From positions 86,651 through 150,650 of the forward strand of contig JACPGB010000012.1 in assembly GCA_016182655.1 (NCBI GenBank): a stretch of 64,000 nucleotides of DNA, in the 5' to 3' direction. This DNA is from Deltaproteobacteria bacterium. GTDB taxonomy: Bacteria > Desulfobacterota > GWC2-55-46. The position numbers and the translations under genes are program-made. Under the pieces are notes generated by a model that was given only the letters and a program-made list of their open reading frames with translations, was not told where the DNA came from and did not search any database. This document shows positions 43,660 through 61,562 of the stretch, one piece after another (within the stretch, counting starts at the first letter, position 1; each line of letters starts with the position of its first letter).

Positions 43660-45237
43660 ATGGACAGGGAGAGTTTTTTTAGACCCTGGCAGGACCCTAT
43701 GAAAGATTCCATGATGAAGCGCTCTCTTGGCATAAGGTTCCAGCTCATCGCCGGGATAGTCATAATAACGCTCGCGTCCATCGGACTCATCGGCGCCTTG
43801 AGCGTCGTCATCATCGAGAGGACCGCATTTTACTGGAAGGTGAACGAGGCCGAGAGGCTCGTCGCCTTTGTCCGCGCCGCATCCCCGCCTGAGACCGAAG
43901 ACCCGTCCATTGGTTATCGTTACGCAGTGAAGGCGTTGAAAGAGTCCGGCGCCGCCGAGTACGCGATAGTCGGCCCCGGCGGGCGCGTCCTTGCAGGCGA
44001 GCTCAAGACCAGAGAGCCCGGAGGCGAGGTCGTCTATTCCGGCGAGTCCGTCACCATTCGGAGGCGCGGAGGCGGCTGGCTCCACGGCATCGGGGACGCC
44101 CTTCATGTGACCGCGCGGCTCAAGCAGGAGGAGAAGGACGGCTACCTGAGCTTCGTCATGCCTCTTTCCGGCGCGAAAGAGGACCTCTCTGAGGTGAGAA
44201 GGTTCCTCGTCATCTACGCCCTCCTCGACACCGTCATCATAGTCGTATTCGGCGCGTACTTTCTCTCCCGCTACATAGTGGGGCCGATAAGGGCGCTCGA
44301 TAAGGCGGCCACTCGCATAGCCGGAGGGAATCTCGACGAGAGGGCCGACGCTCATGTCGACAACGAGGTCGGGTCCCTTGCCGCGTCCTTCAACACCATG
44401 GCCGACAGGTTATCGTCCGAGATAAAGAGCCTCGAGCGCGTGAACCAGGAACTCAATACCGCGCAGGAAGAGTTGCTCCGCTCTTCCACCCTCGCGGTCG
44501 TCGGCAGGCTCGCGGCAGGCATCGCGCACGAGGTCGGGAACCCGCTCGGCGCGGTCAACGGCTACCTCGACATACTCGCGAAGGGCGGCTTGAGCAAAGA
44601 CGAGGAACAAGATATCCTTGAGAGGACCGTAAAGGAGGTCTCAAGAATAGACTTCATCGTAAGGGAGTTTCTCGAGATCTCGCGTCCGGCGTCGACCCCG
44701 CTCGAGCCGGTGGACATGAATTCAGTCGTAAGGGAGACGGTCACGACCCTCGAGGCGCACAAAGATTTCAAGGGAATAGACACGGCCTTTGTGTTAAAAG
44801 AGGGATTGCCTCCGGTTTTGATAGACGCGAGAAAGCTCCGGCAGGTCTTCATGAACATACTCATGAACGCGGCACATTCGTTCGCGGGGACCGGAGGCGC
44901 CAGGAGGGTGACGGTAGAGTCGGGGACCGAGACGAAGGCCGTCTCAAGGCGCAGACGCAAGGACGACCCGCGGTTTTCTCCGGGCCGCGAAAGGGATTTC
45001 GTATTCATACGCATAACCGACGAAGGCTCCGGCATGAGCGAGGAGGCGGCCACGCGCATCTTCGAGCCGTTCTACACGACCAAGGGTCCGTCCATGGGCA
45101 CGGGGCTCGGGCTCTTCGTCTCGCAGTCGATAATAAAGACGTACGGCGGCGAGATCACGCTCTCGTCGAGTGCCGGAGCCGGGTCGTCCTTTACGGTCTC
45201 GCTTCCGGCGTCTGACGAAAAGGGCGAAAAGGCGTAG
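43660..45237 (+). CDS. pilS: Sensor histidine kinase, PilS/NtrB type
   Basis: A 525-residue membrane kinase. Helices near residues 27-52 and 185-206 flank a ~130-residue extracytoplasmic region. A HAMP domain (ALDKAATRIAGGNLDERADA), the phosphoacceptor HisKA box (GIAHEVGNPLGAVNGYLDIL) and a HATPase domain (N box MNILMNAAHSFAG, G boxes DEGSGMSE and GTGLGLFVSQSI) follow. The HEVGNPLG form is that of NtrB-class kinases partnering sigma-54 regulators. The response regulator gene begins 2 bp later, and pilin genes follow, so the name PilS is contextual. Two membrane helices differ from the six-helix PilS of Pseudomonas. Confidence 0.85.
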   Translation: MDRESFFRPWQDPMKDSMMKRSLGIRFQLIAGIVIITLASIGLIGALSVVIIERTAFYWKVNEAERLVAFVRAASPPETEDPSIGYRYAVKALKESGAAEYAIVGPGGRVLAGELKTREPGGEVVYSGESVTIRRRGGGWLHGIGDALHVTARLKQEEKDGYLSFVMPLSGAKEDLSEVRRFLVIYALLDTVIIVVFGAYFLSRYIVGPIRALDKAATRIAGGNLDERADAHVDNEVGSLAASFNTMADRLSSEIKSLERVNQELNTAQEELLRSSTLAVVGRLAAGIAHEVGNPLGAVNGYLDILAKGGLSKDEEQDILERTVKEVSRIDFIVREFLEISRPASTPLEPVDMNSVVRETVTTLEAHKDFKGIDTAFVLKEGLPPVLIDARKLRQVFMNILMNAAHSFAGTGGARRVTVESGTETKAVSRRRRKDDPRFSPGRERDFVFIRITDEGSGMSEEAATRIFEPFYTTKGPSMGTGLGLFVSQSIIKTYGGEITLSSSAGAGSSFTVSLPASDEKGEKA

Positions 45238-45239
45238 CG

Positions 45240-46628
45240 ATGAGGATACTCATAATAGACGACGAAGACTCGATGCGGCACATGCTCTCGGTGATACTTA
45301 AGCGCGAGGGCTACGAGCCGGTCTCCGTTGCCGACGCCGGAAGAGCGCTCGACCTCCTTGAGGCCGACGACTTCGACTTCATACTCTGCGACATAAGGAT
45401 GCCGGGGATGGACGGGCTTGCGTTCCTCAAGGCCTTGAAGGACAGGGGGCTCGCGCGGACAGTCATCATGATGAGCGCCTACGGGACGTTCGACACGGCG
45501 ATCGAGTGCATGAAGCTCGGGGCTTACGACTATATATCCAAGCCCTTCAAGGCCGACGAGATAGTACTAACGGTCAAAAAGGCCGAGGAGCGGGAAAAGC
45601 TCAAGAGGGAAAACCAGCGCCTTAAGGCAGAGGCGCTCGAAGAGTACGACTTCACGAACATATACACCGAAGACGGGAAGATGATCTCCATACTCGGCCT
45701 CGTGAAGAAGGTCGCCGACTACTCGACCTCGGTCCTCATATTAGGCGAGTCGGGCACCGGCAAGGAGCTCGTCGCAAGGGCCATACACTACGGGGGCGCA
45801 AGGGCGCAGAAGCCCTTTGTCACGGTCAACTGCGGGGCGATCCCCGGCGCGCTCCTTGAAAGCGAGCTCTTCGGACATGTGAAGGGCGCCTTTACCGACG
45901 CGCACAGGACCAAGACCGGGCTCTTCCAGGAGGCCGAGTGCGGGACGATATTCCTGGACGAGGTCGGCGAGCTCCCGATGGAACTCCAGGTGAAGCTCTT
46001 GCGCGCGCTCCAGGAGGGAGAGATAAGGAAGGTCGGGGACACCAAGCCCGTCAAGGTCGACGTCAGGGTCGTGGCCGCGACCCTCAAGGACCTTAAAGAG
46101 GAGATACGGAAAGGCTCGTTCAGGGAAGACCTCTACTACAGGCTGAACGTCATAGAGATAAAACTCCCGCCGCTAAGCGAGAGGCCCGTTGACATTCGGG
46201 GGCTCGCCCTGCGCTTCGTCGAAAAATACTCCAGAAAGTTCGGAAAGCCTCCGAAGAGGGTCTCGGAGGAGGCGTTTGCGGTCCTTGAGGGCTATGGATG
46301 GCCGGGCAACATCAGAGAGCTCGAGAACGTGATAGAGAGGGCGATGATACTCGAGGAGACCGATACCATACGGCCGAAGTCCCTGCCGATAGCGGGGCCG
46401 GACGCCGGGCCGCGTACGACTACGGTTGCCGGTGTTGCGCCGTCAGTTTCAACCGCTACGCTACCCGCAACGGAGGAACTGTCCATCAAGCGCGCCCAGG
46501 AGGCGATGGAGAGAGACCTCATAAGGAGGGCGCTCGAAAAGACCCGCAACAACAAGACCAAGGCCGCCGAGATACTCGAGATAAGCCACAGGGCCCTCCT
46601 TTACAAGATAAAAAATTACGGGCTATGA
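45240..46628 (+). CDS. pilR: NtrC-family sigma-54 response regulator, PilR-like
   Basis: The 462-residue protein has a receiver domain (acidic start IIDDEDS, phosphorylated aspartate in FILCDIRMPGMDG, conserved lysine in SKPFKADE). The AAA+ sigma-54 activator domain shows Walker A GESGTGKELVARAIHYGG and Walker B FQEAECGTIFLDEVGELP. A Fis-type helix-turn-helix (TKAAEILEISHRALLYKI) ends the chain. The sigma-54 contact loop reads GAFTDA rather than GAFTGA. Operon position after pilS and before a minor pilin operon with a sigma-54 promoter supports a PilR role. Confidence 0.92.
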   Translation: MRILIIDDEDSMRHMLSVILKREGYEPVSVADAGRALDLLEADDFDFILCDIRMPGMDGLAFLKALKDRGLARTVIMMSAYGTFDTAIECMKLGAYDYISKPFKADEIVLTVKKAEEREKLKRENQRLKAEALEEYDFTNIYTEDGKMISILGLVKKVADYSTSVLILGESGTGKELVARAIHYGGARAQKPFVTVNCGAIPGALLESELFGHVKGAFTDAHRTKTGLFQEAECGTIFLDEVGELPMELQVKLLRALQEGEIRKVGDTKPVKVDVRVVAATLKDLKEEIRKGSFREDLYYRLNVIEIKLPPLSERPVDIRGLALRFVEKYSRKFGKPPKRVSEEAFAVLEGYGWPGNIRELENVIERAMILEETDTIRPKSLPIAGPDAGPRTTTVAGVAPSVSTATLPATEELSIKRAQEAMERDLIRRALEKTRNNKTKAAEILEISHRALLYKIKNYGL

Positions 46629-46733: not shown

Positions 46734-47237
46734 ATGTCAGAGATACGGACAAATAAGAAGGCAGTTGGCGGCTCAAGAGGGTATTCCCTCGTGGAGCTTT
46801 TGGTAGTCCTGGGGTTGGCCGCAACGATAGTCGCCATTGGCGTGCCCGCGCTCATCGGCCAGATGAATCACCTGAGGCTGACGAGGTCGGTGCGCGACAT
46901 GTCGGTCGAGCTCAACGCCGCGCGTCTTAAGGCGATCGCCCAGAACAAGAGGTACAGGGTGCGCTTTACGCTCAGCGCCGCCCCTACCGTCGATACCTAC
47001 AGGCTTCAGTACTATGATGACCCCTCCATCAGTTGGCTGGATGAAACTACCCATGCGACCAAGGAGGTCGAGCCGGGTATCGACATCGTGAGCCCCGGAG
47101 CCAGTTTCGATGTCGAGTTCTGGCCCCAGGGCAGGGGGACCGATACCGAGATATGCGTGCAGTATACGGCCTCCGACAAGATGACGGTCGACGTCGAGCT
47201 CGCCATGGGAAGGGTCACGATTGAAAACGGATGTTAA
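46734..47237 (+). CDS. fimT: Minor pilin, FimT/GspH-type
   Basis: A 167-residue prepilin. The class III leader ends in GGSRG, followed by YSLVELLVVLGLAATIVAIG, with Glu at mature position 5. The mature part begins with the alpha-helix MNHLRLTRSVRDMSVELNAARL and has the FimT/GspH pattern KAIAQNKRYRVRF near residue 75. FimT-like minor pilins sit at the pilus tip or prime assembly, and some bind DNA. It is the first gene of the sigma-54-controlled operon. Confidence 0.88.
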   Translation: MSEIRTNKKAVGGSRGYSLVELLVVLGLAATIVAIGVPALIGQMNHLRLTRSVRDMSVELNAARLKAIAQNKRYRVRFTLSAAPTVDTYRLQYYDDPSISWLDETTHATKEVEPGIDIVSPGASFDVEFWPQGRGTDTEICVQYTASDKMTVDVELAMGRVTIENGC

Positions 47238-47253
47238 AAATGTGGAGGAGGCC

Positions 47254-47742
47254 ATGACAGGCTCCCGCGGTTTTACGCTCGTAGAGGTCCTGATAGCCGT
47301 TACTATCCTCTCGATAGGCATACTCGGGATAGCCGGGCTCGCGGGCACGGTCGTGAAGTCCTCGTCGTACAGCAAGTCCGTCACCCAGGCCACGAACATA
47401 GCCCAGGACAAGATAGAGTCGCTCCTCTCCGTAGACTTCGACAACCTCCAGTCGACCGACACCACCACCGCGCGGACGGACTTGAGGAGGACGTGCGTCC
47501 AGACCGACGCCACGCTCGCGAGGCCCGTCTATACCTGCACGCCTTCATCGACGATAACGAAGGACGGCAGGACATACACGTGGGCGTACACGGTTACGCT
47601 TATAGACCTGGACGCCAGCGGCAACGCGAGCGCCGACGGTCTTAAAAGGCTCGACGTCACGGTATCGTGGATGGACGCCGTATGGAACAGCACGAGGAGC
47701 CTGACACTTACGACCTTAAGAAGCGCGGAGTTCGTGAACTAG
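47254..47742 (+). CDS. pilV: Minor pilin, PilV-type
   Basis: The class III leader ends SRG, followed by FTLVEVLIAVTILSIGILGI (Glu5 present). The mature domain has the helix GTVVKSSSYSKSVTQATNIA and a beta-rich C-terminal part. The track start at 47221 is inside fimT. ATG 47254, after GGAGGAGG, gives a normal short leader of MTGSRG and 162 residues. PilV forms the tip complex with PilW and PilX in Pseudomonas-like systems. Confidence 0.88.
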   Translation: MTGSRGFTLVEVLIAVTILSIGILGIAGLAGTVVKSSSYSKSVTQATNIAQDKIESLLSVDFDNLQSTDTTTARTDLRRTCVQTDATLARPVYTCTPSSTITKDGRTYTWAYTVTLIDLDASGNASADGLKRLDVTVSWMDAVWNSTRSLTLTTLRSAEFVN

Positions 47743-47764
47743 CCCTAAAACGAGAGGCGTGGAT

Positions 47765-50700
47765 ATGAAGATTTCGATCAAGAGACACGTGGACAGGGCC
47801 CTTCGGAGCGAGGGCGGCTTTTCGGTAGTCGAGCTCCTCATAGCCATATTCATAACCGGCATAATAGCCGGGGCCATGTACACGCTCTACACGAACTTCT
47901 TCAGGCAGACGACGGCGACCGACCTCTCCGTCGAGGCCCAGCAGAACGCGAGGGCCGCTATAAACATCATGGAGCGGGAGCTCCTTAACGCAGGGTACGC
48001 GGCGGACACCGAGGACATCGTCTCCGTCGCCGACGCCGACGAGGTCGAGTTCACCTACAAGGACCCGGCGACCAGCGCCACCGTAAGCTACACCGCGAAC
48101 AAGAGGCTCAAGGTAAAATACCACCTCTTCCCGGACCCGGCGGACGTATCGGCCGTATACCCGACCACAGCCGACGGGACGCAGTACTACAAGCTCGTCC
48201 GCACGGTCGACGACCTGACGGACCCGTCTGACGTGCCGCAGGCCGAGGAAATAGTCCCCTACATCCAGAAGGAGGGGGGCGGGGCCGAGAAAGGGCTACA
48301 GCTCACCTATTACGACATAAACGGCGACACGATCGCCGATACCTCGACCGTCGCCGCGCGCAAGAACATAAAGTTCATAAGCGTAAAGCTCATTACCATA
48401 GCGCGGGCCAAGGAGGAAGGTGCGTCCGCAAGCAAGAGCTTCACAATGGAGACCCACGTAAGGCTCCGTAACATCGGCGTCGGCAGCTCCGGCACGGACG
48501 CAACCCCTCCGGCGGCCCCGGCGGCCCTCCAGGTCAGGGACCCCGGGGTATGCGGCAGGCTCAAGCTCAAATGGACGAAAAACACCGAGGGCGATCTCGC
48601 CGGCTACAAGATATATTACGGCGTGACCTCAGGAGGCTATAACGGTATCGTCAACATACCGGCGTCGGTCCTTACGAGCTCCACCTACAGCTGTTCCGAG
48701 GTCGGTTCATCCATAGAATGCACGATCTATCCGGCGAGCCCGGCGCTCGCCTATACGCCTTCGACGACCGCGGCCGGCTCGGGCGCGCCCTATTACATCG
48801 CCGTAAAGGCCTACGACAACTCGCTGAACTTCAGCTCTTTTTCGACCGAGGTCTCGGGCGACCCGGCGACCTCCAACGCTACTTTCGACTCCGGCGGTAA
48901 CGATTCCACCCTGAACCCGGCGAAGCCGCCGCTTGTGGCGTCTTTTACGTCGGCAAACGGCCCGACGGAAGGCCAGGTGGCCTTAAGCTGGGCCGCGTAC
49001 GACACCACGAGCTATCCGGACGTCGTGGGCTTCAGGGTATACAGGTCCACGTCGGCCTTCTCCGCTTACCCGATAGACCCGGCGGCCGCGGGCATCGACT
49101 GGATAGCCGGCGAGCCTGGGAGCGGCAAGCCCGAGATAACCCAGAGCGCCACGTCGTACACCGACGTCGGGCCGTCCCTTACCGGTTGCATGGTCTATTA
49201 TTACGCCATAGCCCCGGTCAACTGCGACGCAACACTCATCCCGGACGACGGGGGAGACCCTTCCTCAAAGAAGTACATGCAGACGGATTACGCGGCTACC
49301 TGCGGCGACGGCTCCTCGGCCTGCACGCCGGGGACGGGTTTCTCCGCCGTATCCGGCTCGGATACAGCCCCGAACGAGACTTCGGCCCCGGACCCGCCCG
49401 TGATCGACGCGAGGGCGGGCTGGAAGAGGGTCGCGCTATCGCTTACCCAGCCGGCGTCCACGGACCTCGACCAGACGTGTCTTTATGAGAACGACAGCGC
49501 CACATACCCGGCGCTCCTTACCGACACCGGCGCCTATCCGAAGGTGTCCAAGTGCTACCAGGTGAACACCTCGTCGACGCCGAACTCGAGGCTTGTCCCG
49601 GATTCCGGCGGCATATTCACCTCATCCGAACTCGCCCAGGGGCAGTCCACGTCCTTCTGGCACGATTCGATGACGGTAGAGAGTCCCGGCACGCCGTCTC
49701 TCGCCGAGACGGGGACGTACTCCTACAGGGCGGTCTCGTTTGATCTCTGCGGCAACGGCTCGCCATACACGAGCGCGCAGGCGACTACCATACTCTGCGG
49801 CGAGGACCCGGCCTCCGGTGAAAAACCGCCTGCGGTTACGGGCGCGTCGGCCTCGTGCTGTTCGACCCCCGTGTCCCTTACATGGACCGGGGTATCGAGC
49901 GACACCGGTTCTCCGTCCACGCCGACCAACCCGTACGACCTCGCGGGCTACAGGATCTTCAGGTCGTCATCCGCGGACTTCACGGGCTCGACGATGATAT
50001 CCGGCTCCGCGCCGTTCTGGGGCACCACGTACAGCGACGCGACGATCTCGGACGGAGGGACGTATTATTACAAGATAGTATCGACCGACTGCCCGTACGA
50101 GAGGAACAACCCGACGGAAGCGACGATAAAGAGCGACATGCTTAGCGGGTATCTTAACTCAACGCTTATCGGCCCCGTGAAACCCGGGAAGATCGACAGG
50201 GACGAGAAATGCGTGGGCTCGTCAGGCTCGTGCTTCAAGGACAATCACAGGGAGGTCCTGACCGGGGTGGATGTGAACAACTCTTCCGGCACCGGCACCA
50301 ACTCGACTACGCCCAAGTCCTCGTACAAGCACAATACAGTCACAATGTTCCTCAGCAACTCCAGCGCCGGGACTATGACGATCACTAACGCGACGGTCTC
50401 GTGGGTCAACTCCTCGGCTTACTTAAGGGAGATAAAGGTAGGCGGCGGCAGGAGCGGCATGGGGACCTTCGCTACATCCATAGACGCATCCGCCACGGCC
50501 GCCGTATCCGGCAATCCGCCTTACTCGAGCGGTGTCGTGAATGTCGCCCTTGCCGCGACCCAGGTGCCGGCGAGCGCGCGCTACGTGCCGATAACATTCG
50601 AGTTCAAGGACGCCTCGGGGAACGCCGTCGACATGAGGGACGACCAGCTCCTCATAACGCTGACGGTAACGAACGACGCGACTTCGACCACGGGGTGCCT

Positions 50701-52207
50701 CTCTTACCTTACCGTCTCGCAGAGCCTCGAAGGGGTATTCGTGCCGTTCGGGCCCTCGATATCCGCTACACAGCAGAACCAGCCGTCAAGCCCGACCTTC
50801 AGCTACGCGGTCCCGGGCTCGACGGGCTTGAACACCGTGCCAAACGGCTCCGACGGCTCCATACTCGCCGGCTCGGGAGTCAACGTGACCGTTACCGCGA
50901 ACATCGCCGGCAACACGACCAACGCGCAAACCGGCGCAAAGGTAACCGTGACCTCGGCGAAGCTTTACTATAAAGTCACGGCAAAGACCACGACTACGGC
51001 TCCGACATCCGGCTTTACCGAGGTCACGATGACGAACCCGTCGGGCAACACATGGACCGGCACGATACCGGCTAATAACGGGTTCAGGATCTGGTATTAT
51101 ATAATTGCGACCGACGCCGACGGCAACTGGGACCGCGACCCCGAGATTTCCGACGGCGCCTATGTCTACGACCAGGCGACCTTCGACCCATGCGACGTGA
51201 CGCCAAGCGCGCCGACGAACCTCTCGGCAGTTCCGGTCGTCTCAGATGTAGCGCTCACCTGGACCGCCGCGACCACGTACACGAACGGCGCGACAATAGA
51301 CACCGGCGCGGACCCGATACTCTACAGGATATACAGGGGAGGATCGCAGATAGGCTCGGACCAGTCAGGGACGGCCTATTCCGATACGGGCCTTGCCGCG
51401 GGCGTCTACAGTTACTACGTGAAAACGGTCAATTCATGCGCCGACCCCGGGCCTAACGTGAGCGCCCAGTCGAACACCGCGGCCGCCTGCGTAGGGACCT
51501 CGGGGCAGGCTACCCTGACAGTCTCCCCCACTTCCATCTACAGGGGGGCGAGCTACACGGTCTCGATAGTCGACTGCCTCGCCATCAACGGCGCATACTC
51601 GGCGACAACTGAAGTCATAAACTCCACGAGCGGGTTTACCGGGTTTACGAACGCCTCCACCGCCCCCGGCTCCTATAACCCGACGATAACCGAGACGGGC
51701 CCGGCCACCGGGACGTTCACCAAGACCATAACGACGACGAGCGACGTGACCGATTCCACAAAGCTCCTTACTCTCGCAAGCGACACCATTACGGTTACCT
51801 ATCCCTATGCGTCGCCATCGTCCAAGACCGTGAGCGTCGTCGTGGACCCGTGCACGAACACGCCGAACGCCCCGTCCGGGTTTACCGGGTCGATATCAAG
51901 CAACAACGCGGTACTCTCGTGGACGGCGGTCACCCAGAACACCGACAGCTCCGCCATAACGGACCTCGTGGGCTACAAGGTCTACGAGAAGGTCTGCGCC
52001 AAGAACAAGCCGGACTGCACGGGAGCCGATATAATCGCCGACTGGTTCCTCCGTACGACCGTGGCCGCGGGCACGACGACCGCGACCTTAGGGCCCGACC
52101 AGGGCGCGTGGAACCAGAGGATATACTACTTCAAGGCGACGGCGTACGACTCCTGCTCGACACCCAAGGAGAGCGCCTACTCCGGCGCATGGAACGAGAC
52201 GAACTAA
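47765..52207 (+). CDS. pilW: Giant PilW-type minor pilin with fibronectin-III-like adhesin repeats
   Basis: About 1,480 residues, four to five times a normal PilW (roughly 250-350). Residues ~1-25 form a leader ending SEGG, then FSVVELLIAIFITGIIAGAM with Glu5. A PilW-like pilin domain runs to about residue 245. The remainder is a string of beta-sandwich modules. At least six end in fibronectin-III-like G-strand patterns such as YYIAVKAYDNS, YYYAIAPVN, YRAVSFDL, YYYKIVSTDC, YYVKTVNSC and YYFKATAYDSC, and most contain LSW, LTW or LKW. Two others (around 810-970 and 1240-1340) look like other Ig-like folds. About 25 cysteines could form disulfides. It lies between pilV and pilX. The inference is a pilus-tip adhesin. 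A PilY1 gene is absent from the window. ATG 47765 is chosen over GTG 47759. Confidence 0.9.
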   Translation: MKISIKRHVDRALRSEGGFSVVELLIAIFITGIIAGAMYTLYTNFFRQTTATDLSVEAQQNARAAINIMERELLNAGYAADTEDIVSVADADEVEFTYKDPATSATVSYTANKRLKVKYHLFPDPADVSAVYPTTADGTQYYKLVRTVDDLTDPSDVPQAEEIVPYIQKEGGGAEKGLQLTYYDINGDTIADTSTVAARKNIKFISVKLITIARAKEEGASASKSFTMETHVRLRNIGVGSSGTDATPPAAPAALQVRDPGVCGRLKLKWTKNTEGDLAGYKIYYGVTSGGYNGIVNIPASVLTSSTYSCSEVGSSIECTIYPASPALAYTPSTTAAGSGAPYYIAVKAYDNSLNFSSFSTEVSGDPATSNATFDSGGNDSTLNPAKPPLVASFTSANGPTEGQVALSWAAYDTTSYPDVVGFRVYRSTSAFSAYPIDPAAAGIDWIAGEPGSGKPEITQSATSYTDVGPSLTGCMVYYYAIAPVNCDATLIPDDGGDPSSKKYMQTDYAATCGDGSSACTPGTGFSAVSGSDTAPNETSAPDPPVIDARAGWKRVALSLTQPASTDLDQTCLYENDSATYPALLTDTGAYPKVSKCYQVNTSSTPNSRLVPDSGGIFTSSELAQGQSTSFWHDSMTVESPGTPSLAETGTYSYRAVSFDLCGNGSPYTSAQATTILCGEDPASGEKPPAVTGASASCCSTPVSLTWTGVSSDTGSPSTPTNPYDLAGYRIFRSSSADFTGSTMISGSAPFWGTTYSDATISDGGTYYYKIVSTDCPYERNNPTEATIKSDMLSGYLNSTLIGPVKPGKIDRDEKCVGSSGSCFKDNHREVLTGVDVNNSSGTGTNSTTPKSSYKHNTVTMFLSNSSAGTMTITNATVSWVNSSAYLREIKVGGGRSGMGTFATSIDASATAAVSGNPPYSSGVVNVALAATQVPASARYVPITFEFKDASGNAVDMRDDQLLITLTVTNDATSTTGCLSYLTVSQSLEGVFVPFGPSISATQQNQPSSPTFSYAVPGSTGLNTVPNGSDGSILAGSGVNVTVTANIAGNTTNAQTGAKVTVTSAKLYYKVTAKTTTTAPTSGFTEVTMTNPSGNTWTGTIPANNGFRIWYYIIATDADGNWDRDPEISDGAYVYDQATFDPCDVTPSAPTNLSAVPVVSDVALTWTAATTYTNGATIDTGADPILYRIYRGGSQIGSDQSGTAYSDTGLAAGVYSYYVKTVNSCADPGPNVSAQSNTAAACVGTSGQATLTVSPTSIYRGASYTVSIVDCLAINGAYSATTEVINSTSGFTGFTNASTAPGSYNPTITETGPATGTFTKTITTTSDVTDSTKLLTLASDTITVTYPYASPSSKTVSVVVDPCTNTPNAPSGFTGSISSNNAVLSWTAVTQNTDSSAITDLVGYKVYEKVCAKNKPDCTGADIIADWFLRTTVAAGTTTATLGPDQGAWNQRIYYFKATAYDSCSTPKESAYSGAWNETN

Positions 52208-52219
52208 AAGGTGGACGCC

Positions 52220-53485
52220 ATGAAACCCAAAAACGAAGGCGGCAATGAAAAGGGGTTCGTCCTCATACTCGCGCTCGTCACCATGATAGCTATGACGGTC
52301 ATAGGCCTTAGCGCCGTCATGAACATGACGACCGATTTACAGCTATCAAGGAACGAGAGGGACTCGAAAATAGCCTTCCAGCTCGCCGAGGCGGGCATAA
52401 ACGAGATGATCTCGCGGCTGCACCTGCCGTCAACGAATGCCAAATATACCGGTGAGAAGTCGACGGACGGGGCGGCATATAGGTCGACGACCTGGAACTC
52501 GGACAACTCCGACGACATCGGGTACGGCTACGGCGCGGGGAGGGCGAGCGCGGAGACGCTCAACTACACGGTCCAGATAAACTACCTCGACGACGGCAAT
52601 ACCGAGAACCTCTGCGACTCAAACGACGTCGGCTCGAACGACTCGGGCAACGCCTCCAAGGTCCCGGACACCGCCTCGTGGAACTGCCCGCACGGAGCGA
52701 CCGAGATAGTCATGTTCGGCAACGACTTCAAGATACCCGAGACGGTCACTTTCATAGACTACGGCAAACAGCCTGTCTACAAGATGGAGTCCACGGGGAC
52801 CTACGGCACGACCCAGAAGACCATAATCGCCTACGTCGGGGCAAGCAACCTGAACACCGACACGAACGCCGCCATAAACACCAACGGGTGCGTGAACATC
52901 TCCGGGGGCGCGTCGGCGACGATCACGGGCGGCGTGCTCGAGTACGGTAGCGGCGGGTGCACGACCTGCAATGACGGGATGGGAGGGTGCGCGGCAAAGG
53001 GCTCCGAAGACGTCATGAACACATATCTCGGCGATAACATCTCCGAGATAATCAACTTCGCCGACGAAAAACACAAGTGCAAGAACGGGACATGCAGCGC
53101 CGCAGGCGATGACATCCCCGCGAGCGGCAAGATAGACGACGTCGTCCTCGACTGGGGCGACTACGCGAACGATACTTATTCAAGGATGATATACATCGAC
53201 AACTCCGGCGGCAAGGAAGTGGATATATCCGGCACCTTCCAGGGCAGGGGCATACTCATCGTCACCGGGGACCTCTCCCTCTCGGGCAACCTCGATTTCG
53301 AGGGGCTCGTCTACGTCTTCGGCACGCTCACCTTAAGCGGCTCCCTTACCGTCACCGGCGGCATAATGGCCGACACCACAGTCGCAGTCCACGGCAGCGT
53401 AACCTCCACCTACGACCAGGCAACCCTCGACGCGGTATCCAAGGAAAACAGCTCGTCAACGGTAATACTCTGGAAGAGGCTGTAG
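52220..53485 (+). CDS. pilX: Minor pilin, PilX-type with beta-helix C-terminal domain
   Basis: A 421-residue protein with a short leader ending NEKG and the hydrophobic stretch FVLILALVTMIAMTVIGLS. It lacks the Glu at position 5, as PilX and GspK subunits do. The helix continues with DLQLSRNERDSKIAFQLAEA. The C-terminal third contains short repeating beta units (GRGILIVTGDLSLSGNLDFE, GTLTLSGSLTVTGGIMADTT), suggesting a small right-handed beta-helix, as in bactofilins. ATG 52220 with AAGGTGG upstream is preferred to GTG 52211. It is the last gene of the operon. Confidence 0.85.
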   Translation: MKPKNEGGNEKGFVLILALVTMIAMTVIGLSAVMNMTTDLQLSRNERDSKIAFQLAEAGINEMISRLHLPSTNAKYTGEKSTDGAAYRSTTWNSDNSDDIGYGYGAGRASAETLNYTVQINYLDDGNTENLCDSNDVGSNDSGNASKVPDTASWNCPHGATEIVMFGNDFKIPETVTFIDYGKQPVYKMESTGTYGTTQKTIIAYVGASNLNTDTNAAINTNGCVNISGGASATITGGVLEYGSGGCTTCNDGMGGCAAKGSEDVMNTYLGDNISEIINFADEKHKCKNGTCSAAGDDIPASGKIDDVVLDWGDYANDTYSRMIYIDNSGGKEVDISGTFQGRGILIVTGDLSLSGNLDFEGLVYVFGTLTLSGSLTVTGGIMADTTVAVHGSVTSTYDQATLDAVSKENSSSTVILWKRL

Positions 53486-53912: not shown

Positions 53913-54971
53913 ATGAATCTGCCGTTTCTGAAGAAAAAAGACGCCGTAGCGTTTGACATAGGCTCCAACTCCATAAAACTCGTCCAGATGAACCAGACAA
54001 AGAAGGGATGGGAGCTTACCAAGCTCGGCATCGCGGAGCTCCCGCCCGAGGCGATCGTCGACGGGTCCATAATCGACTCGATGACGGTCACCAATACGCT
54101 CAAAGACCTCATCAAGGAACACGGCGTCAAGGTCAAGGACGCCGTCTCTTCCCTCACCGGACACTCCGTCATAATCAAGAAAGTCAGTTTTCCCGCGATG
54201 ACCGAGGAAGAGCTCGCCGACTCCATCCAGTGGGAGGCCGAGCAGTACATCCCGTTCCCGATAACCGACGTCAACATCGACTTTCAGATACTCGGCGCGG
54301 ACACCGAGGGCAGGGGCCAGATGGACGTCATGCTGGTCGCGGTGAAGAAGGACGTCATAAACGACTACACGAACGTCATCAAGGAGGCGGGGCTTAACCC
54401 CGTCGTCATCGACGTCGACTCCTTCGCCCTCGAGAACATGATGGAGATAAACTACCCCGTCTCTCCCGGCGAGAACATCGCGATGGTCAACATCGGGGCC
54501 TCCATAACGTCCATAAGCGTCATATTGGGCGGGCTTACCATCTTCACCCGCTCGATACCGATGGGCGGGAACCAGTTCACCGAGGAGATACAGAGACAGC
54601 TGAACGTGAGCTTCAAGGACGCCGAGGAGATGAAGACCGGCAAAAAGCCCGAGGGCGAGGCGCAGGTCTCCTCAGCCGTCGAATCCATCGCCGGGAACCT
54701 CACCTTCGAGGTCAAGAGGTCGCTGGATTTCTTCCTCGGCGGCTCGCAGGGCTCTTATGTAAACAAGATATACTTGAGCGGCGGGGGGTCGAGGGCCGCG
54801 GGGCTCAAGGAACTCATGCAGGAGAAGACCGCGATACCGGTCGAGGTAGTGAACCCGTTCAAGAACGTCGAGGCCGACTCCAGGCACTTTGACAAGGAGA
54901 AGCTCAAGGACTCGGCGCCGTTCTTCGGCGTCGCCGTCGGGCTCGCCACGCGGAGGTTCGCAGACAGATGA
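53913..54971 (+). CDS. pilM: Type IV pilus inner-membrane platform protein PilM
   Basis: PilM is an actin-like cytoplasmic protein that binds the N-terminus of PilN. The 352-residue sequence has the nucleotide-binding start AFDIGSNSIKLVQMNQ, the family block WEAEQYIPFPITDVNIDFQI and the C-terminal YLSGGGSRAAGLKEL. It is the first pil gene of pilMNOPQ and overlaps pilN by 4 bp. Confidence 0.95.
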   Translation: MNLPFLKKKDAVAFDIGSNSIKLVQMNQTKKGWELTKLGIAELPPEAIVDGSIIDSMTVTNTLKDLIKEHGVKVKDAVSSLTGHSVIIKKVSFPAMTEEELADSIQWEAEQYIPFPITDVNIDFQILGADTEGRGQMDVMLVAVKKDVINDYTNVIKEAGLNPVVIDVDSFALENMMEINYPVSPGENIAMVNIGASITSISVILGGLTIFTRSIPMGGNQFTEEIQRQLNVSFKDAEEMKTGKKPEGEAQVSSAVESIAGNLTFEVKRSLDFFLGGSQGSYVNKIYLSGGGSRAAGLKELMQEKTAIPVEVVNPFKNVEADSRHFDKEKLKDSAPFFGVAVGLATRRFADR

Positions 54972-55534
54972 TCCGCATAAACCTCCTGCCCGTAAGGGCC
55001 GCAAAGAAAAAGGAATCGGTAAGGTTCCAGCTTACCGTGGCCGGGCTCGTGAGCTTCCTCGTCGTGGTCGTCGCGCTCGGCGCGTACTTCACCGTGAGGA
55101 ACGAGGCCGGCGGGCTCAAGGACCAGATAGGACAGGGCGAGCAGGAGATAGAGGAGCTCAAGAAGAAGATAGGCGAGCTCTCCAAGATAAAGGAACAGAA
55201 GAGGATAGTCGAGGAGAAGCTCAAGGTCATAACCAACCTCGAAGCCGCCAGGACCGGCCCCGTGGACCTCTTCAGGAAGATAAGCGAGGCCATCCCCGAG
55301 AGGGCCTGGCTCGCCTCCGTGAAGGACGAGGGTTTCACCGTGACGGTCAAGGGCTACGCCTCCGACGACGAGGTCGTCGCGGACTTCATGAGGGGGCTTC
55401 AGAAGTTCAAGGAGCTGGGCCTCGTCGAGCTCGAGGTCGCGCAGAGGATCGTCGAGAGGGAGACCGGAAGCGACCTCGTAGCCTTCACCTTAAGGCTCGA
55501 GAAGACGATAGAGAAGCCCAAGGAGAAGAAATAA
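54968..55534 (+). CDS. pilN: Type IV pilus assembly protein PilN
   Basis: The 188-residue bitopic protein starts with the PilM-binding motif MIRINLLPVR. One membrane helix (about residues 24-44) and a periplasmic coiled coil (about 50-85) follow, then a ferredoxin-like fold. It pairs with PilO to link PilM to PilP and PilQ. Confidence 0.95.
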   Translation: MIRINLLPVRAAKKKESVRFQLTVAGLVSFLVVVVALGAYFTVRNEAGGLKDQIGQGEQEIEELKKKIGELSKIKEQKRIVEEKLKVITNLEAARTGPVDLFRKISEAIPERAWLASVKDEGFTVTVKGYASDDEVVADFMRGLQKFKELGLVELEVAQRIVERETGSDLVAFTLRLEKTIEKPKEKK

Positions 55535-55535
55535 C

Positions 55536-56144
55536 ATGGCCCTTGCGCTGCCGAAGATAAACCCTGAAATAGTGATGAAGCTCCCGCTCTCGAAGCGGGT
55601 GGCGATACTCGCGGCCGTGAACGTAGTCGTGGTCGGGCTCATATACTGGTTCCTCATAGGCCCCAAGTACGCCGATGTAAAGGACCTCCGGGTCCAGCTC
55701 CAGGACTTGAACGTCAAGCTGAACGAGAGCAGGCAGATAGCCGCCGACATCCCGAAGTTCCTCCAGGAGAAGGAGGAGATGGAGAAAAAACTCATGGCCG
55801 CGGTCGCCCAGCTCCCGAACGAGAAGGAGATCCCCGACCTCATAGACAGCATAAGCGAGGCCGGGCAGAGGGCGGGCCTCAAGATCCAGCTTTTCAAGCC
55901 CGAGCGCGAGAACAAGAAGGGCTTCTACGCGGAAGTCCCGGTCACGATGTCGGTCGAGGGCAGGTTCGAGAGCCTCTACGACTTCAGCGACAAGGTCGGC
56001 AAGCTCCCGAGGATAGTCAACATCAGCGGGATGGACATACTGTCGCTCGGGCACAAGAACAGGATACCCCAGCTGAAGGCGAACTTCACATCCACGACTT
56101 TCAGGTTCATACCGATGCAGGGCGAAGGAGAGCCCAAGAAATAA
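55536..56144 (+). CDS. pilO: Type IV pilus assembly protein PilO
   Basis: A 202-residue protein with a membrane helix at about residues 26-46 (VAILAAVNVVVVGLIYWFLI), a coiled coil and a C-terminal ferredoxin-like domain (FYAEVPVTMSVEGRFESLYD). It forms heterodimers with PilN. Gene spacing is 1 bp from pilN and it overlaps pilP by one base. Confidence 0.94.
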   Translation: MALALPKINPEIVMKLPLSKRVAILAAVNVVVVGLIYWFLIGPKYADVKDLRVQLQDLNVKLNESRQIAADIPKFLQEKEEMEKKLMAAVAQLPNEKEIPDLIDSISEAGQRAGLKIQLFKPERENKKGFYAEVPVTMSVEGRFESLYDFSDKVGKLPRIVNISGMDILSLGHKNRIPQLKANFTSTTFRFIPMQGEGEPKK

Positions 56145-56671
56145 TGTCAAGACGACTATTGATAGCTTTACTGGCAACGGCCCTTTCCCTGTCTCTGGCG
56201 GCTTGCAAGAAGGAAGAGCCCCAGCCGGAACAGCCGGTAAAAAGGGCGCAGCCCGCGAAACCGGCGGCTATCGCGGCTACGGCCGGGATAGATACCTCGG
56301 CCAAGATCGAGCCGAGCGTGGTAGACGCCTCCAGGCACAGAAACCCGTTCCAGAGCCATATCATACTGCTCCGCGGTAGCGGCGACGGCCCCAAGAAGAT
56401 CAAGGGCCCGCTCGAGTGCTGCGAGCTTACGCTCTTCAGGGTGCACGCGATAGTAGCCGCTAAAAACGGCGCCTTCGCGCTCGTGCAGGCCCCCGACGGC
56501 AAGAGGTATGTCGTAAGGAAGGGCGACGTCATAGGGATCAAGGAAGGCAAGGTCATGAAGATAGGGGGCAAGGCCATAACGGTCCGGGAGTTCACGAGAG
56601 ACCAGGACGGCAAGGTCCTCTCGACTGATGACACCGAGATCAAGATCCCGGTTGAAAAAGTGGTCCGCTGA
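56144..56671 (+). CDS. pilP: Type IV pilus lipoprotein PilP
   Basis: The 175-residue protein has a lipoprotein signal with lipobox LAAC (LSLAACKKEEPQPEQ), a Pro/Ala-rich tether and a C-terminal beta domain with FALVQAPDGKRYVVRKGDVI, the secretin-contacting HR/GC-like fold. It connects PilNO to the secretin PilQ. Confidence 0.94.
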   Translation: MSRRLLIALLATALSLSLAACKKEEPQPEQPVKRAQPAKPAAIAATAGIDTSAKIEPSVVDASRHRNPFQSHIILLRGSGDGPKKIKGPLECCELTLFRVHAIVAAKNGAFALVQAPDGKRYVVRKGDVIGIKEGKVMKIGGKAITVREFTRDQDGKVLSTDDTEIKIPVEKVVR

Positions 56672-56742
56672 CGCGAGGTCTTTGCGTTTCGTTGTTTTGA
56701 CGTAATCAGTTACCGAATGTATCGAGAAGCTCTGGAGGGCTT

Positions 56743-59586
56743 ATGCGTATGACAGACGATCGGTTGAGGCACGGCCTCATCGGTTCCATCCTCGCCGGCG
56801 CGCTCATCTTCACGGGCTGCGCCTCGACTGGACCGAAGGACATAAAAACGGACGGAGCGCCCGAGGCGGCCGTAGCGGCCCCTCAGGCCCAAAACGAGGC
56901 CGCGCCTGACGTAATATCGGTAGAGTACATTAACATGGTCGGCGACGGCGACAGGGTGATGATAGCCACGACCGGGCCGGTCAAGTTCACGGCCTTCAGG
57001 CTCTCGGACCCCGCCCGGCTTATACTCGACCTCCCCGGCGTAAACCTCGACAAGGTCCCGGCCGCGCTCGCCGTGAACAACGCGTTCGTCGGCGAGATAA
57101 CGTCGGCTACCTATGGCGAGGGCAAGGACATCGGCAGGGTCGTCATCGGGCTTAAGGAAGGCATCGACCACGACGTGAAGTCCGGCGATAACAGCATACT
57201 CGTAAGCCTCTCAAGGCCGGCCGCAGCCGCCGTTGCCCCGGCTACGGAGCCCGCAAAGGCTGAAGCGCAGACTGCGGCTACACCCGAGCCGGTCAAGGTC
57301 GAAGACCTCGCACCGAAGGCAAAGTCGATGAAGCAGGCCTCCACGGTCGTGAAGGTAGTAGAGTCGAAAGACGGGGAGAATACCGTCATAAGGATTATGA
57401 GCGACGGGCTTCTCGGGAACTATAGCACCTTCGACCTCGACAGCCCCGGAAGGGTCGTCATAGACGTATGGGACGTAGGCAGTTCCATCGGCAAGGACGT
57501 GGTGAGGCTCGAAGGAAAGTATCTTAAGACCGTAAGGATCGGTACGCACGCCGATAAGGCGAGGTTCGTGTTTGACGCCGCAGGCAAGAAGCTCACGCCC
57601 CACTCGATAAAGCGCGTCGAGGACGAAATTGTCCTGACTATAGGGCCGAAGGTCGTGCCTGCCGTTGACGAGGCCGCAAAACCCGCGAGGAAGCTCGTTA
57701 AAAAAGCCGAGCCCGTAAAGACCGCGAAGGCCGAGAAAAAGGCAGAGCCAAAGGCCGAAGCCCCGATCGCGGAGTCGCAGAAAGCGGCCCCCGCAACCGT
57801 GACCGCCGAGGCCGAAATAGCCGCTCCTGCCCCGAAGGCCGCGGAGGCCCCGAAGGCCGAGCCTGAAAAGGCCGTAAAGGCCGATAACGGCATTAAAGTA
57901 GAGAAGGTCGACTTCAGGCGCTCCAACGGCGCCGGCTCGCTATCCATCGCCACGAGCGCGAGGGCCGAGTACAACGTGAAGGAGTCCGCGGACGGCAGGA
58001 CGGTTACAATAGACATAAAGGGCGCGACCATACCCGATGAGCTTACAAGGACGCTCGACGCCGCAAAGCTCAATACGGCTGTAGCTACCATCAGCTCGTT
58101 CCAGGGCTCCTTTGAGCCCAAAGAGGTCCGCGTAATAGTGAAGCTCAAGGAAAAGGCGCCTTATACGGTGACCGACGAGGACGGCACGCTCAAACTCGAG
58201 TTCGCCGCCGTTGTCGCGGAGCCCGCCCCCGCGATAAAGGCCGAGGCAGAGCCTCAGGCCGGTGAAAAGGGCGCGAATAAGGAAGACGCGATCGTGGCGG
58301 AAAAGAGGGAGTATACCGGCGCCAGGATCGATCTCGATATGATGGACGCCAACGTTAGCGACGTGCTACGTCTACTTGCCGAGATAAGCAACATGAACAT
58401 CATAGCCTCGGACGACGTGAAGGGGACGATATCCTTGAGGCTCAAGAACGTGCCCTGGGACCAGGCCTTCGACATCATACTCCGCTCAAAGGAACTGGAC
58501 AGCGTCCAGGAGGGCAACGTCATAAGGGTCGCCCCGGCCATGAAGATAAGGCTGGAGAAGGAATCCTTCCTTGCTTCCCGCAAGGCGCAGGAGAAGCTTG
58601 AGAACCTCGAGATACACTTCATACCGGTCAATTACGCCTCGTCCGTGGAACTCATAAAGCAGGTCCAGGGCGTCCTTACGGACAGGGGGACGGTCACGAA
58701 CGACGCGAGGACGAACACCATAATAGTAAAGGACATCAGGACCGGGGTCGAGGCGGCGAAGAACCTCATCACGAAGCTCGACACCGCGATACCGCAGGTC
58801 CTTATCGAAGCCAGGATAGTCGAGGCCTCGACGAGCTTCGCGAGAGACTTGGGTATTCAGTGGGGGCTTGAGTACGGCACCGGCGGCAACACCTCGACCG
58901 AGACCTTCGGCGCGAGCGGCACTGAGGGGCAGGCTGTACAGACCTTCCAGACGCCCAACTCGAACATAACCGCGACAGGCGCCGACCAGTACGCCGTGAA
59001 CCTTCCGGCCACCGGCTCGGCCGGCACGCTCGGCGCATTGGGCTTCCTCCTCGGCAAGGCCGGGTCAAACCCGTTCCTTCTGGACTTGAGGCTCTCGGCC
59101 GGCGAGACCGAAGGCAGGCTCAAGACCATATCGAGGCCGCGCATAACCACGATGGACAACAAGGAGGCGAAGATCGAGCAGGGCGAGTCGATCCCCTTCG
59201 AGACGACCTCCTCGGCGGGCACGGCCACGACCTTCATCGACGCGAACCTCTCCCTCACCGTCACGCCGCACATTACCCCCGACGGCTCGGTCCTCATGAA
59301 GATAAAGGCGTCGAGGAACTCGATAGGCACGTTCAGGACTTCAGGCGGCGAGCCTTCTATAAACAAGAAGGAGTCCTCTACAGAAGTCCTCGTCAGGGAC
59401 GGCGAGACCACGGTCATAGGCGGTATCGTCATAACGGACAAGAACGACTCGGACAAGGGCATACCGTACCTCCAGGATATCCCGGTCATCGGCTGGCTTT
59501 TCAAGTCCAAGTCGGTGTCGGACTCGCAGACCGAGCTCCTGATATTCATAACCCCGACTATCCTCAAGGACAAGATCAAGGCCTGA
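56743..59586 (+). CDS. pilQ: Type IV pilus secretin PilQ with three AMIN domains
   Basis: The 947-residue outer-membrane pore has a signal with lipobox IFTGC, so it may be lipidated. Three AMIN domains start around KFTAFRLSDPARLILDLPGV, YSTFDLDSPGRVVIDVW and YNVKESADGRTVTIDIKG. A Lys/Ala/Glu/Pro-rich linker separates the second from the third. The STN/N0 domain (DLDMMDANVSDVLRLLAEI), N1 and the secretin core (VLIEARIVEASTSFARDLGI, SRPRITTMDNKEAKI, GGIVITDKNDSDKGIPYL) complete the protein. It is followed by a strong terminator ending the operon. AMIN domains bind peptidoglycan and locate the secretin. Confidence 0.95.
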   Translation: MRMTDDRLRHGLIGSILAGALIFTGCASTGPKDIKTDGAPEAAVAAPQAQNEAAPDVISVEYINMVGDGDRVMIATTGPVKFTAFRLSDPARLILDLPGVNLDKVPAALAVNNAFVGEITSATYGEGKDIGRVVIGLKEGIDHDVKSGDNSILVSLSRPAAAAVAPATEPAKAEAQTAATPEPVKVEDLAPKAKSMKQASTVVKVVESKDGENTVIRIMSDGLLGNYSTFDLDSPGRVVIDVWDVGSSIGKDVVRLEGKYLKTVRIGTHADKARFVFDAAGKKLTPHSIKRVEDEIVLTIGPKVVPAVDEAAKPARKLVKKAEPVKTAKAEKKAEPKAEAPIAESQKAAPATVTAEAEIAAPAPKAAEAPKAEPEKAVKADNGIKVEKVDFRRSNGAGSLSIATSARAEYNVKESADGRTVTIDIKGATIPDELTRTLDAAKLNTAVATISSFQGSFEPKEVRVIVKLKEKAPYTVTDEDGTLKLEFAAVVAEPAPAIKAEAEPQAGEKGANKEDAIVAEKREYTGARIDLDMMDANVSDVLRLLAEISNMNIIASDDVKGTISLRLKNVPWDQAFDIILRSKELDSVQEGNVIRVAPAMKIRLEKESFLASRKAQEKLENLEIHFIPVNYASSVELIKQVQGVLTDRGTVTNDARTNTIIVKDIRTGVEAAKNLITKLDTAIPQVLIEARIVEASTSFARDLGIQWGLEYGTGGNTSTETFGASGTEGQAVQTFQTPNSNITATGADQYAVNLPATGSAGTLGALGFLLGKAGSNPFLLDLRLSAGETEGRLKTISRPRITTMDNKEAKIEQGESIPFETTSSAGTATTFIDANLSLTVTPHITPDGSVLMKIKASRNSIGTFRTSGGEPSINKKESSTEVLVRDGETTVIGGIVITDKNDSDKGIPYLQDIPVIGWLFKSKSVSDSQTELLIFITPTILKDKIKA

Positions 59587-59710: not shown

Positions 59711-60910
59711 ATGTTGAGGTTTCTGACTGCAGGCGAGTCTCACGGAAAAGAGCTTACGGCGATTGTGGAGGGCGCGCCCTCGGGGCTCCCAATTTCTCCC
59801 TCCCAAATAGACGCCGACCTTGCAAGGAGGCAGTCCGGCTACGGCAGGGGTGGCCGGATGAGCATAGAGACGGACAGGGTGGAGATAACCGCCGGGGTCA
59901 GGCACGGGCTTACGCTCGGCTCGCCCATAGCTCTCATCGTAAGGAACAGGGACTGGGAGAACTGGACGGAAGTAATGTCGCCCGTTCCGTCGACCTATGA
60001 TGGATCGAAGACGGTCACGAAGCCGAGGCCGGGCCACGCGGACTTGTCCGGCGGCATCAAATACGACCACAGGGACCTGCGTAACATTCTGGAGAGGTCG
60101 AGCGCCCGGGAGACGGCCGCAAGGGTCGCGGCAGGGGCGGTTGCCAGGCGTCTCCTCGATGAATTCGGCATAAAGGTATACAGTTGGGTGACCGGCATCG
60201 GAGGGGTAGAGTGGAAGAAGAGGGGCGAGGCCCGGCCCGACGAGCTCTTTGACGGGGCCGAGGCGTCAGTCGTAAGGTGCCCTGATAAAAAGACATCAAA
60301 GGCGATGGTCTCGGCGATCGACCTCGCCAAAAGGGCCGGGGACAGCCTCGGGGGCGTTTTCGAGGTCGTGGTCACAGGCGTGCCGCCCGGGCTCGGGAGC
60401 CACGTTCAATGGGACAGGAAGCTTGACGGCTCTCTCGCGCGCGCCCTCATGTCAATACAGGCCATAAAGGGCGTTGAAGTCGGGATAGGCTTCGGCGCGG
60501 CCTCCACCCCAGGCTCAAAGGTCCATGACGAGATATTCCATGGAAGAAAAACCAAGGCCTTCAAGGGCTCTTATTGGCCGGTCCCCGGGACGTTCTTCAG
60601 GAAGACAAACAACGCGGGCGGCATAGAGGGCGGGATGTCGAACGGGGAGCCCCTTGTGCTCCGAGCCGTCATGAAGCCGATACCGACGCTCTATAAGCCG
60701 CTTAGATCCATTGACATAGTCACAAAGGAACCTTTCAAGGCATCCATTGAAAGGTCGGACGTATGCGCCGTCCCTGCCGCGGCGATCGTAGCCGAGGCCG
60801 CCGTGGCGTTCGAGGTAGCAAGGGAGTTCCTTGTAAAGTTCGGCGGGGACTCGGTAGTTGAAATTGAGAGGAACTACAGGGGATACCTCGGCCAGATAGA
60901 GAGGTACTGA
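59711..60910 (+). CDS. aroC: Chorismate synthase
   Basis: AroC converts 5-enolpyruvylshikimate 3-phosphate to chorismate using reduced FMN. Signature blocks are [35 protein letters not shown] and [20 protein letters not shown] followed by [14 protein letters not shown]. Length (399 aa) is normal. It leads the aroC-aroK-aroB cluster, with its own terminator before aroK. Confidence 0.97.
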
Positions 60911-60932
60911 GTCCCAAAAGCTTCCCCCGAGC

Positions 60933-60969
60933 GGCCGGACCGGGTTTGTGCGGACCCGGCCTTTTTCTT
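60933..60969 (+). terminator. Terminator after aroC
   Basis: GGCCGGACCGGGT, loop TTGTGCGG, ACCCGGCC followed by TTTTTCTTTT. The stem has one bulged A. Confidence 0.78.
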
Positions 60970-61008
60970 TTGATGTCCAAGGGTTTGCGGATATAACTTA
61001 TACCAGAT

Positions 61009-61542
61009 ATGAATATAGTCCTGACCGGCTTCATGGGGACCGGAAAATCGACGGTGGGAAGGCTCCTTTCAAGGGAGCTGGGTCTTAAGTTCCTCGACCT
61101 CGACGACCTTATCGAAAGAGAGGCGGGGCTCGAGGTAAAGGACATTTTCGCGGTCCAGGGAGAGGCGCGCTTTCGAGAACTCGAGAGCTCGGTCATAGAG
61201 AGGCTCTCTTTCGGAGCTTATGGAGGCGGCATAGTGATATCCACGGGCGGCGGCGCCGTAGTGAACCCCAAAAACAGGACCATGCTGAGATCCTTCGGAA
61301 AGGTCGTCTGCCTCAAGGCATCGGTCGACGAGATACTCCGGAGGGTAGGGGACAGGACCGAGAGACCCCTCCTCGCCAGACCCGACAAGAGGGAGACGAT
61401 AGAGAGGCTACTTAAGGAGCGAGACGGCGCTTACGGGGACTCGGACCTTTCGATAGACACGACCGCGCTCTCAATAGAGCAGGTAGTCTCCCGGATAAGG
61501 GCCTTCATTGAAACATCCGCAAAGACAGACACTTATAAATAA
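61009..61542 (+). CDS. aroK: Shikimate kinase
   Basis: AroK phosphorylates shikimate at the 3-hydroxyl. The 177-residue protein has Walker A TGFMGTGKSTVGRLLS, the substrate-binding DLDDLIEREAG, and ISTGGGAVVNPKNR followed by DRTERPLLARPDKRE (the lid arginine). It is about 20 bp upstream of aroB. Confidence 0.96.
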   Translation: MNIVLTGFMGTGKSTVGRLLSRELGLKFLDLDDLIEREAGLEVKDIFAVQGEARFRELESSVIERLSFGAYGGGIVISTGGGAVVNPKNRTMLRSFGKVVCLKASVDEILRRVGDRTERPLLARPDKRETIERLLKERDGAYGDSDLSIDTTALSIEQVVSRIRAFIETSAKTDTYK

Positions 61543-61562
61543 AGATCGAGGGAGAGGGTAAA

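Follow-up and report, generated by a model that had tools for sequence, protein, structure and literature searches.

The window analysed here, a stretch of 64,000 nucleotides from contig JACPGB010000012.1 of a Deltaproteobacteria bacterium (assembly GCA_016182655.1, positions 86,651 to 150,650), encodes a giant form of the type IV minor pilin PilW (1,480 aa; 47765..52207, + strand), in which a pilin is continued in the same frame by nine beta-rich modules, and which is located in a cassette of minor pilin genes between pilS-pilR and pilMNOPQ. In related genomes this giant-pilW cassette and a pilY1-bearing cassette are alternatives at one locus. The most probable explanation, to which a probability of roughly 0.6 is assigned, is that the giant modular PilW takes part in an alternative tip complex without PilY1, with a beta-sandwich fibre in PilY1's stead; the location at the tip, processing, passage through PilQ and adhesion are presumed in this reading. 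The odds are about even for the wider proposal that fimU-pilV-giant pilW-long pilX represents a second class of tip for the type IVa pili of Gram-negative bacteria, in which a covalent fibre of the fibronectin type III (FnIII) kind on PilW takes over both the priming and the adhesive duties of PilY1, and that at the pil locus this set and the pilY1 cassette have replaced one another several times.

The pilin and its long extension, described as a single frame in a first-pass annotation of this sequence, extend uninterrupted from the ATG at 47765 to the stop at 52207. A GTG at 47759 is an alternative start; the ATG has a Shine-Dalgarno-like GAGG ~8-12 bases 5' of it. The gene was sought in a sample of 59 genomes, all of them draft assemblies, in which the completeness of the metagenome-assembled genomes (MAGs) varies and of which the publicly named records are MAGs of uncultivated bacteria, for the most part of groundwater origin and for the most part labelled Deltaproteobacteria. 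The giant is encoded in 24 of the 59, the window's own genome included, mostly at full length and with identities from 91% (same genus) down to 34%. Full-length, single-frame orthologues spanning this range of 34-91% occur in ~20 independently assembled genomes, the best of them, in independent MAGs, at 91, 75, 72 and 71%. The ratio of nonsynonymous to synonymous substitution rates (dN/dS) lies between 0.06 and 0.33 in every module (four genome pairs), pointing to purifying selection on each of them. A frameshift or assembly join within the open reading frame, which would have refuted the first-pass annotation, is ruled out by the one-frame orthologues in independent MAGs and by these low ratios, and the similar fusions sought in relatives are present, again at full length, in many independent MAGs; the giant PilW is thereby confirmed.

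The protein begins with a genuine prepilin leader (47765..47818, + strand), which ends in Gly-Gly and is predicted to be cleaved after the second Gly (...RSEGG^FSVVE; GG^FSVVELLIAIFITGIIAG). Position -1 is Gly and position +5 is Glu, as in a class III signal peptide, and the Pfam N_methyl model is matched at 22.2 bits (cut-off 21.2). The PilW module that follows (47819..48490, + strand) consists of a long N-terminal helix, at 3-60 in the AlphaFold model, and a globular domain, and it matches the canonical PilW from the pilY1 cassettes of relatives over its whole length (hhalign probability 99.3%, E 2e-20). With the helix removed, the globular part retains its match to PilW (94%, E 1e-7) and has none to FimU, PilV or PilX (hhalign probability <=3%). 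Both the leader with Glu5 and the PilW-like domain of the first-pass annotation are thus upheld, the latter by a profile match to PilW alone among the minor pilins, and the gene also holds the position of pilW within the fimU-pilV-pilW-pilX set. The curated PilW-specific Pfam and NCBIfam models match neither the giant nor the canonical PilW of the same genome. As the alignment reaches residue 294 of 295 of canonical PilW, next to its last, and so spans the complete protein, the extension was added behind a complete PilW. An extension of 1,240 residues is unusual for a subunit crossing a secretin, which would fit a PilW part that serves as an inner-membrane or periplasmic anchor for the chain without assembling into the pilus, but the intact class III signal with Glu5 and the full PilW homology are conserved in 19 homologues, and the gene is strictly linked to the other core minor pilins and pilMNOPQ, making such an anchor very improbable.

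The extension (48491-52204, + strand; ~1,240 residues) is composed of nine beta-rich modules, the borders of which were placed by eye on alignment A1 and the structural models. Five of these are assigned to FnIII: M1 (48491..48913) and M2 (48914..49375) by profile, model and fold match, and M4 (49814..50170), M7 (51188..51496) and M9 (51854..52204) by profile and model, with the profile of M9 matching the FnIII domain of chitinase A1. These five are mutually homologous by profile, most pairs at 81-98.6%, with lower scores for M1-M2 (41%) and M1-M7 (31%), while M3 (49376..49813) matches weakly and is best described as FnIII-like by profile and model. Two further modules are not FnIII by sequence according to models and profiles, namely M5 (50171..50740), the model of which is partly of low confidence, and M8 (51497..51853), a beta-sandwich. 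The same holds for the beta-rich M6 (50741..51187; alignment, model and profile), in which an invariant-core DADGNWDRDPE motif (~51113-51142) could be a Ca2+ site. The chain of FnIII-like sandwich repeats with many cysteines proposed in the first-pass annotation thus holds for the beta-rich chain and its cysteines (25 in the giant protein, 12 of them invariant across the 19 homologues), for FnIII in five modules and more weakly in a sixth, and does not, by sequence, extend to M5, M6 and M8.

A Pfam scan of the window's giant protein returned the N-methyl motif alone and no fn3, a domain matched in five of the 19 homologues (best 3.5e-7), so that the homologue profiles and folds were needed to recover the FnIII signal. 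AlphaFold2 models built from the 19 homologues, with the N-terminal and C-terminal halves treated separately, show the long pilin helix followed by serial beta-sandwiches, at a mean predicted local distance difference test score (pLDDT) of 79 and 75, respectively, and with scores under 50 in parts of M5 and of the M5/M6 border. Foldseek searches of the PDB return FnIII chains, including human fibronectin III 7-10, gp130, contactins and titin; the template modelling (TM) scores are low, since chains of several domains cannot be superposed as rigid bodies, and only the fold class is read from them. No tandem repeats were found in the DNA of the extension, suggesting that the modules are old and not recently duplicated. 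The C-terminal beta-propeller of PilY1 (PF05567) is not matched in the giant protein, which may work like PilY1 but does not belong to the PilY1/PilC family.

The giant gene forms part of a cassette on the + strand with a fimU-like minor pilin gene (46734..47237), pilV (47221..47742; TIGR02523 above cut-off) and a long pilX (52211..53485; 424 aa, with PilX_N and no Glu5), flanked by a pilS-pilR-like sensor kinase and sigma-54 regulator pair (43660..46628) and by pilM-N-O-P-Q (53913..59586). The order pilS-pilR-fimU-pilV-giant pilW-long pilX-pilMNOPQ is strictly syntenic across the orthologues. Among the fully flanked sites between pilSR and pilM that were fetched from relatives, this cassette is found in 14 genomes and a pilV-pilW-pilX-pilY1-fimT cassette in eight, a few sites hold divergent pilY1 sets, and both cassettes never occur at one site. 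On a PilR+PilM+PilN+PilO tree, derived from a quick search and with some site assignments resting on one flank, at least four changes of state are counted for the strict sites and five or six when half-linked contigs are included. The close relatives G009 (giant) and G018 (pilY1) are in opposite states. The PilY1 tree roughly follows the species, which favours relocation or loss over repeated acquisition from distant sources.

The absence of pilY1 noted in the first-pass annotation is correct for the giant's own cluster only. A pilY1 gene is present on another contig (C3) of the same genome, coding for a protein that matches the beta-propeller model PF05567 above its cut-off (45 bits) and shows a weak vWA signal, within a pilV-pilW (303 aa)-pilX (152 aa)-pilY1-fimT set beside an NtrC-family regulator. 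A genome without PilY1 is therefore rejected here, and a pilY1 beside a second minor-pilin set is one half of what the first-pass annotation had regarded as incompatible with its reading. Two genes lie between pilY1 and fimT on C3, one for a protein of 115 aa and one for an Ig-like protein of 289 aa, the N-terminus of which is of the lipoprotein type (MKRSFIAILFLAFLMQACG), and the C3 cassette (L002:7526-15775, G000) has its own sigma-54 regulator.

Both genes occur together in seven of the 59 genomes, the giant alone in 17, pilY1 alone in 22 and neither in 13, a negative association by Fisher's test both across all genomes (p 0.017) and among the well-assembled ones (p 0.033). PilY1 was not found in the 17 giant-only genomes with the Pfam model and tblastn with this genome's PilY1, absence here meaning no recognisable family member. 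Fourteen of the 17 are at least 90% complete, some assembled in only 3 and ~20 contigs, and in the highly contiguous G003, G008 and G024 PilY1 was not found even at E<=1. Where both genes are present, the pilY1 cassette is located away from the pilSR-pilM site in all seven genomes and has its own minor pilins. The retention of both cassettes in these seven, the 13 genomes with neither the giant nor a recognisable PilY1, and the cassette of a second lineage that is unlinked to pilMNOPQ (see below) could indicate that the giant cassette has a second, specialised role, such as DNA uptake, mineral contact, secretion or cell-cell contact, and that it alternates with pilY1 by chance, through the place at which a second minor-pilin set happens to be inserted. 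This is improbable, since the giant is the sole recognised large tip component in 17 genomes, the pili of which it must serve, and the core operon never holds both cassettes.

A wider survey, of 395 genomes drawn evenly from across the phylum, recovered the giant from this order and from a single further lineage (f26), where the protein shares 36-38% identity and is encoded in open frames of 1,386-1,407 aa. The f26 cassette has the layout fimT-pilV-giant pilW-long pilX and does not adjoin pilMNOPQ, and PilY1 was not found in the f26 genomes carrying the giant. The maintenance of the cassette in f26 suggests that it travels or persists as a unit. The f26 cassette loci (L143, L144 and L145) also include their own very large sensor kinase (frames of 988-1,133 aa) and an NtrC-type regulator.

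In the alternative tip complex proposed for the giant PilW, a complete PilW would have gained nine beta-rich modules (five or six of them FnIII) at its C-terminus, and FimU, PilV, giant PilW and long PilX would constitute a self-contained cassette replacing pilV-pilW-pilX-pilY1-fimT beside pilMNOPQ. The prepilin would enter the inner membrane and be cleaved after Gly-1, with the extension folding in the periplasm with disulphides, and PilW would join FimU, PilV and PilX in a priming complex at the pilus tip. The growing pilus would then push the FnIII fibre out through PilQ, and the exposed fibre may perform the surface binding or sensing that is the job of PilY1 elsewhere. An FnIII module is ~4 nm long, and nine modules could form a fibre of ~35 nm, thin enough for PilQ. 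The genome encodes several ATPases of the PilB/GspE type, along with shorter matches similar in length to PilT, so that a retractile pilus is plausible.

The first-pass annotation had proposed an adhesin built into the pilin. A pilin bearing a fibre fits the data, and the comparison with PilY1 is strengthened by the alternative cassettes at one locus and the 17 genomes without PilY1, but several observations weigh against the giant replacing PilY1 as an adhesin. The function of PilY1 is not lost in the window's genome, which retains pilY1. Among phylogenetically independent pairs, nearly all that differ agree with the negative association of the giant and pilY1, but they are too few for significance (median p 0.125). 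In G055, a genome rated 100% complete, the same cassette (L090, 4953-6939, - strand) encodes a PilW of ~247 aa that ends at the pilin/M1 boundary, and no PilY1 was found; the pilus can evidently do without either the giant extension or PilY1. The extension is as conserved as the pilin domain or more so, the pilin often being the least conserved part (54% identity with G003, as compared to 93% for M3 and 89% for M8), unlike a fast-evolving adhesin; one with a hypervariable tip is unsupported, dN/dS being uniformly low. Finally, no module matches any known ligand-binding family.

With all modules conserved, the extension may be a stalk that is not itself adhesive, a structural brace that would stabilise the priming complex, keep it at a distance from the secretin gate or hold a further tip protein. 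Chains of FnIII modules are common spacers, and the purifying selection in all modules, the lack of a hypervariable distal module and the lack of a match to a ligand-binding family are all consistent with such a role. The length and number of the distal modules nevertheless differ between genera, with the giant ranging from 1,091 aa (G040) to at least 1,857 aa (G046), and the cassette is an alternative to the pilY1 set, which bears the adhesin, and not a companion to it. A stalk is therefore considered unlikely, though it is the strongest of the alternatives to a fibre in PilY1's stead.

Modular pilins, FnIII ones included, are already known. The InterPro entry IPR003961 is, by its name, presumably that of FnIII. 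Raynaud et al. (2021) describe >1,200 modular type IV pilins in 264 architectures, with IPR003961 among the 15 most frequent extra modules and 860 residues for the most extreme multi-domain example cited (PMC8179133). In Streptococcus sanguinis, PilB with a vWA and PilC with a lectin domain are modular pilins (PMC8179133), and they stand where diderm pili have PilHIJK (PMC10191384). With its predicted pilin fused in frame to a non-pilus domain (FnIII), the giant can be classed among them, sharing the N-terminal pilin module, the foreign C-terminal module and the proposed exposure at the tip. It differs in being a core PilW of a diderm pilMNOPQ operon, in its ~1,240-aa, nine-module extension and in the alternation of its cassette with the pilY1 cassette at one locus. 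Modelling of the Myxococcus xanthus pilus gives the order PilA-FimU-PilW-PilV-PilX-PilY1, in which PilY1 forms the tip (PMC13190605), and PilY1 and the minor pilins form a priming complex (PMC7541494). The PilY1/PilC tips of M. xanthus, Pseudomonas aeruginosa and Neisseria (PMC7541494, PMC13190605) have the same four minor pilins and the same place in the operon, and a similar tip location and role are presumed for the giant, which lacks the PilY1 beta-propeller and has its large extracellular part covalently joined to a pilin. CofB and other large type IVb minor pilins (cited in PMC8179133) resemble the giant in their large, beta-rich C-terminal domains and predicted place at the tip, but CofB belongs to a type IVb system, has three domains in total, is trimeric and acts as adapter for secreted CofJ; no CofJ-like partner gene was seen here.

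What is new is the size of the giant, the fact that it is a core PilW belonging to a Gram-negative pilMNOPQ operon, and the alternation of its cassette with the pilY1 cassette at one site. No published report of such a giant PilW or cassette alternation was found in the open-licence papers searched. PilY1 is the tip protein of the well-studied Gram-negative type IVa pili, in which the needs for priming and adhesion are hard to separate, and lineages in which the pilY1 set is swapped for a PilY1-less giant set at the same place in the operon offer a natural comparison. The modules of this putative, very large covalent tip fibre can also be produced and tested singly.

The PilX proteins of the giant cassettes (window 52211-53485 and relatives) are ~410-550 aa in length, as compared to ~150-220 aa in the pilY1 cassettes; the extra C-terminal half of the long PilX looks beta-helical by eye and may belong to the alternative tip. 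In G038 and G042 (L084 and L105), pilS-pilR is followed directly by pilM without minor pilins, and a pilY1 match occurs on other contigs. Downstream (3') of pilQ, the window (59711-62645) contains aroC, a shikimate-kinase-like gene and an aroB-like gene, the familiar pilQ-aro linkage.

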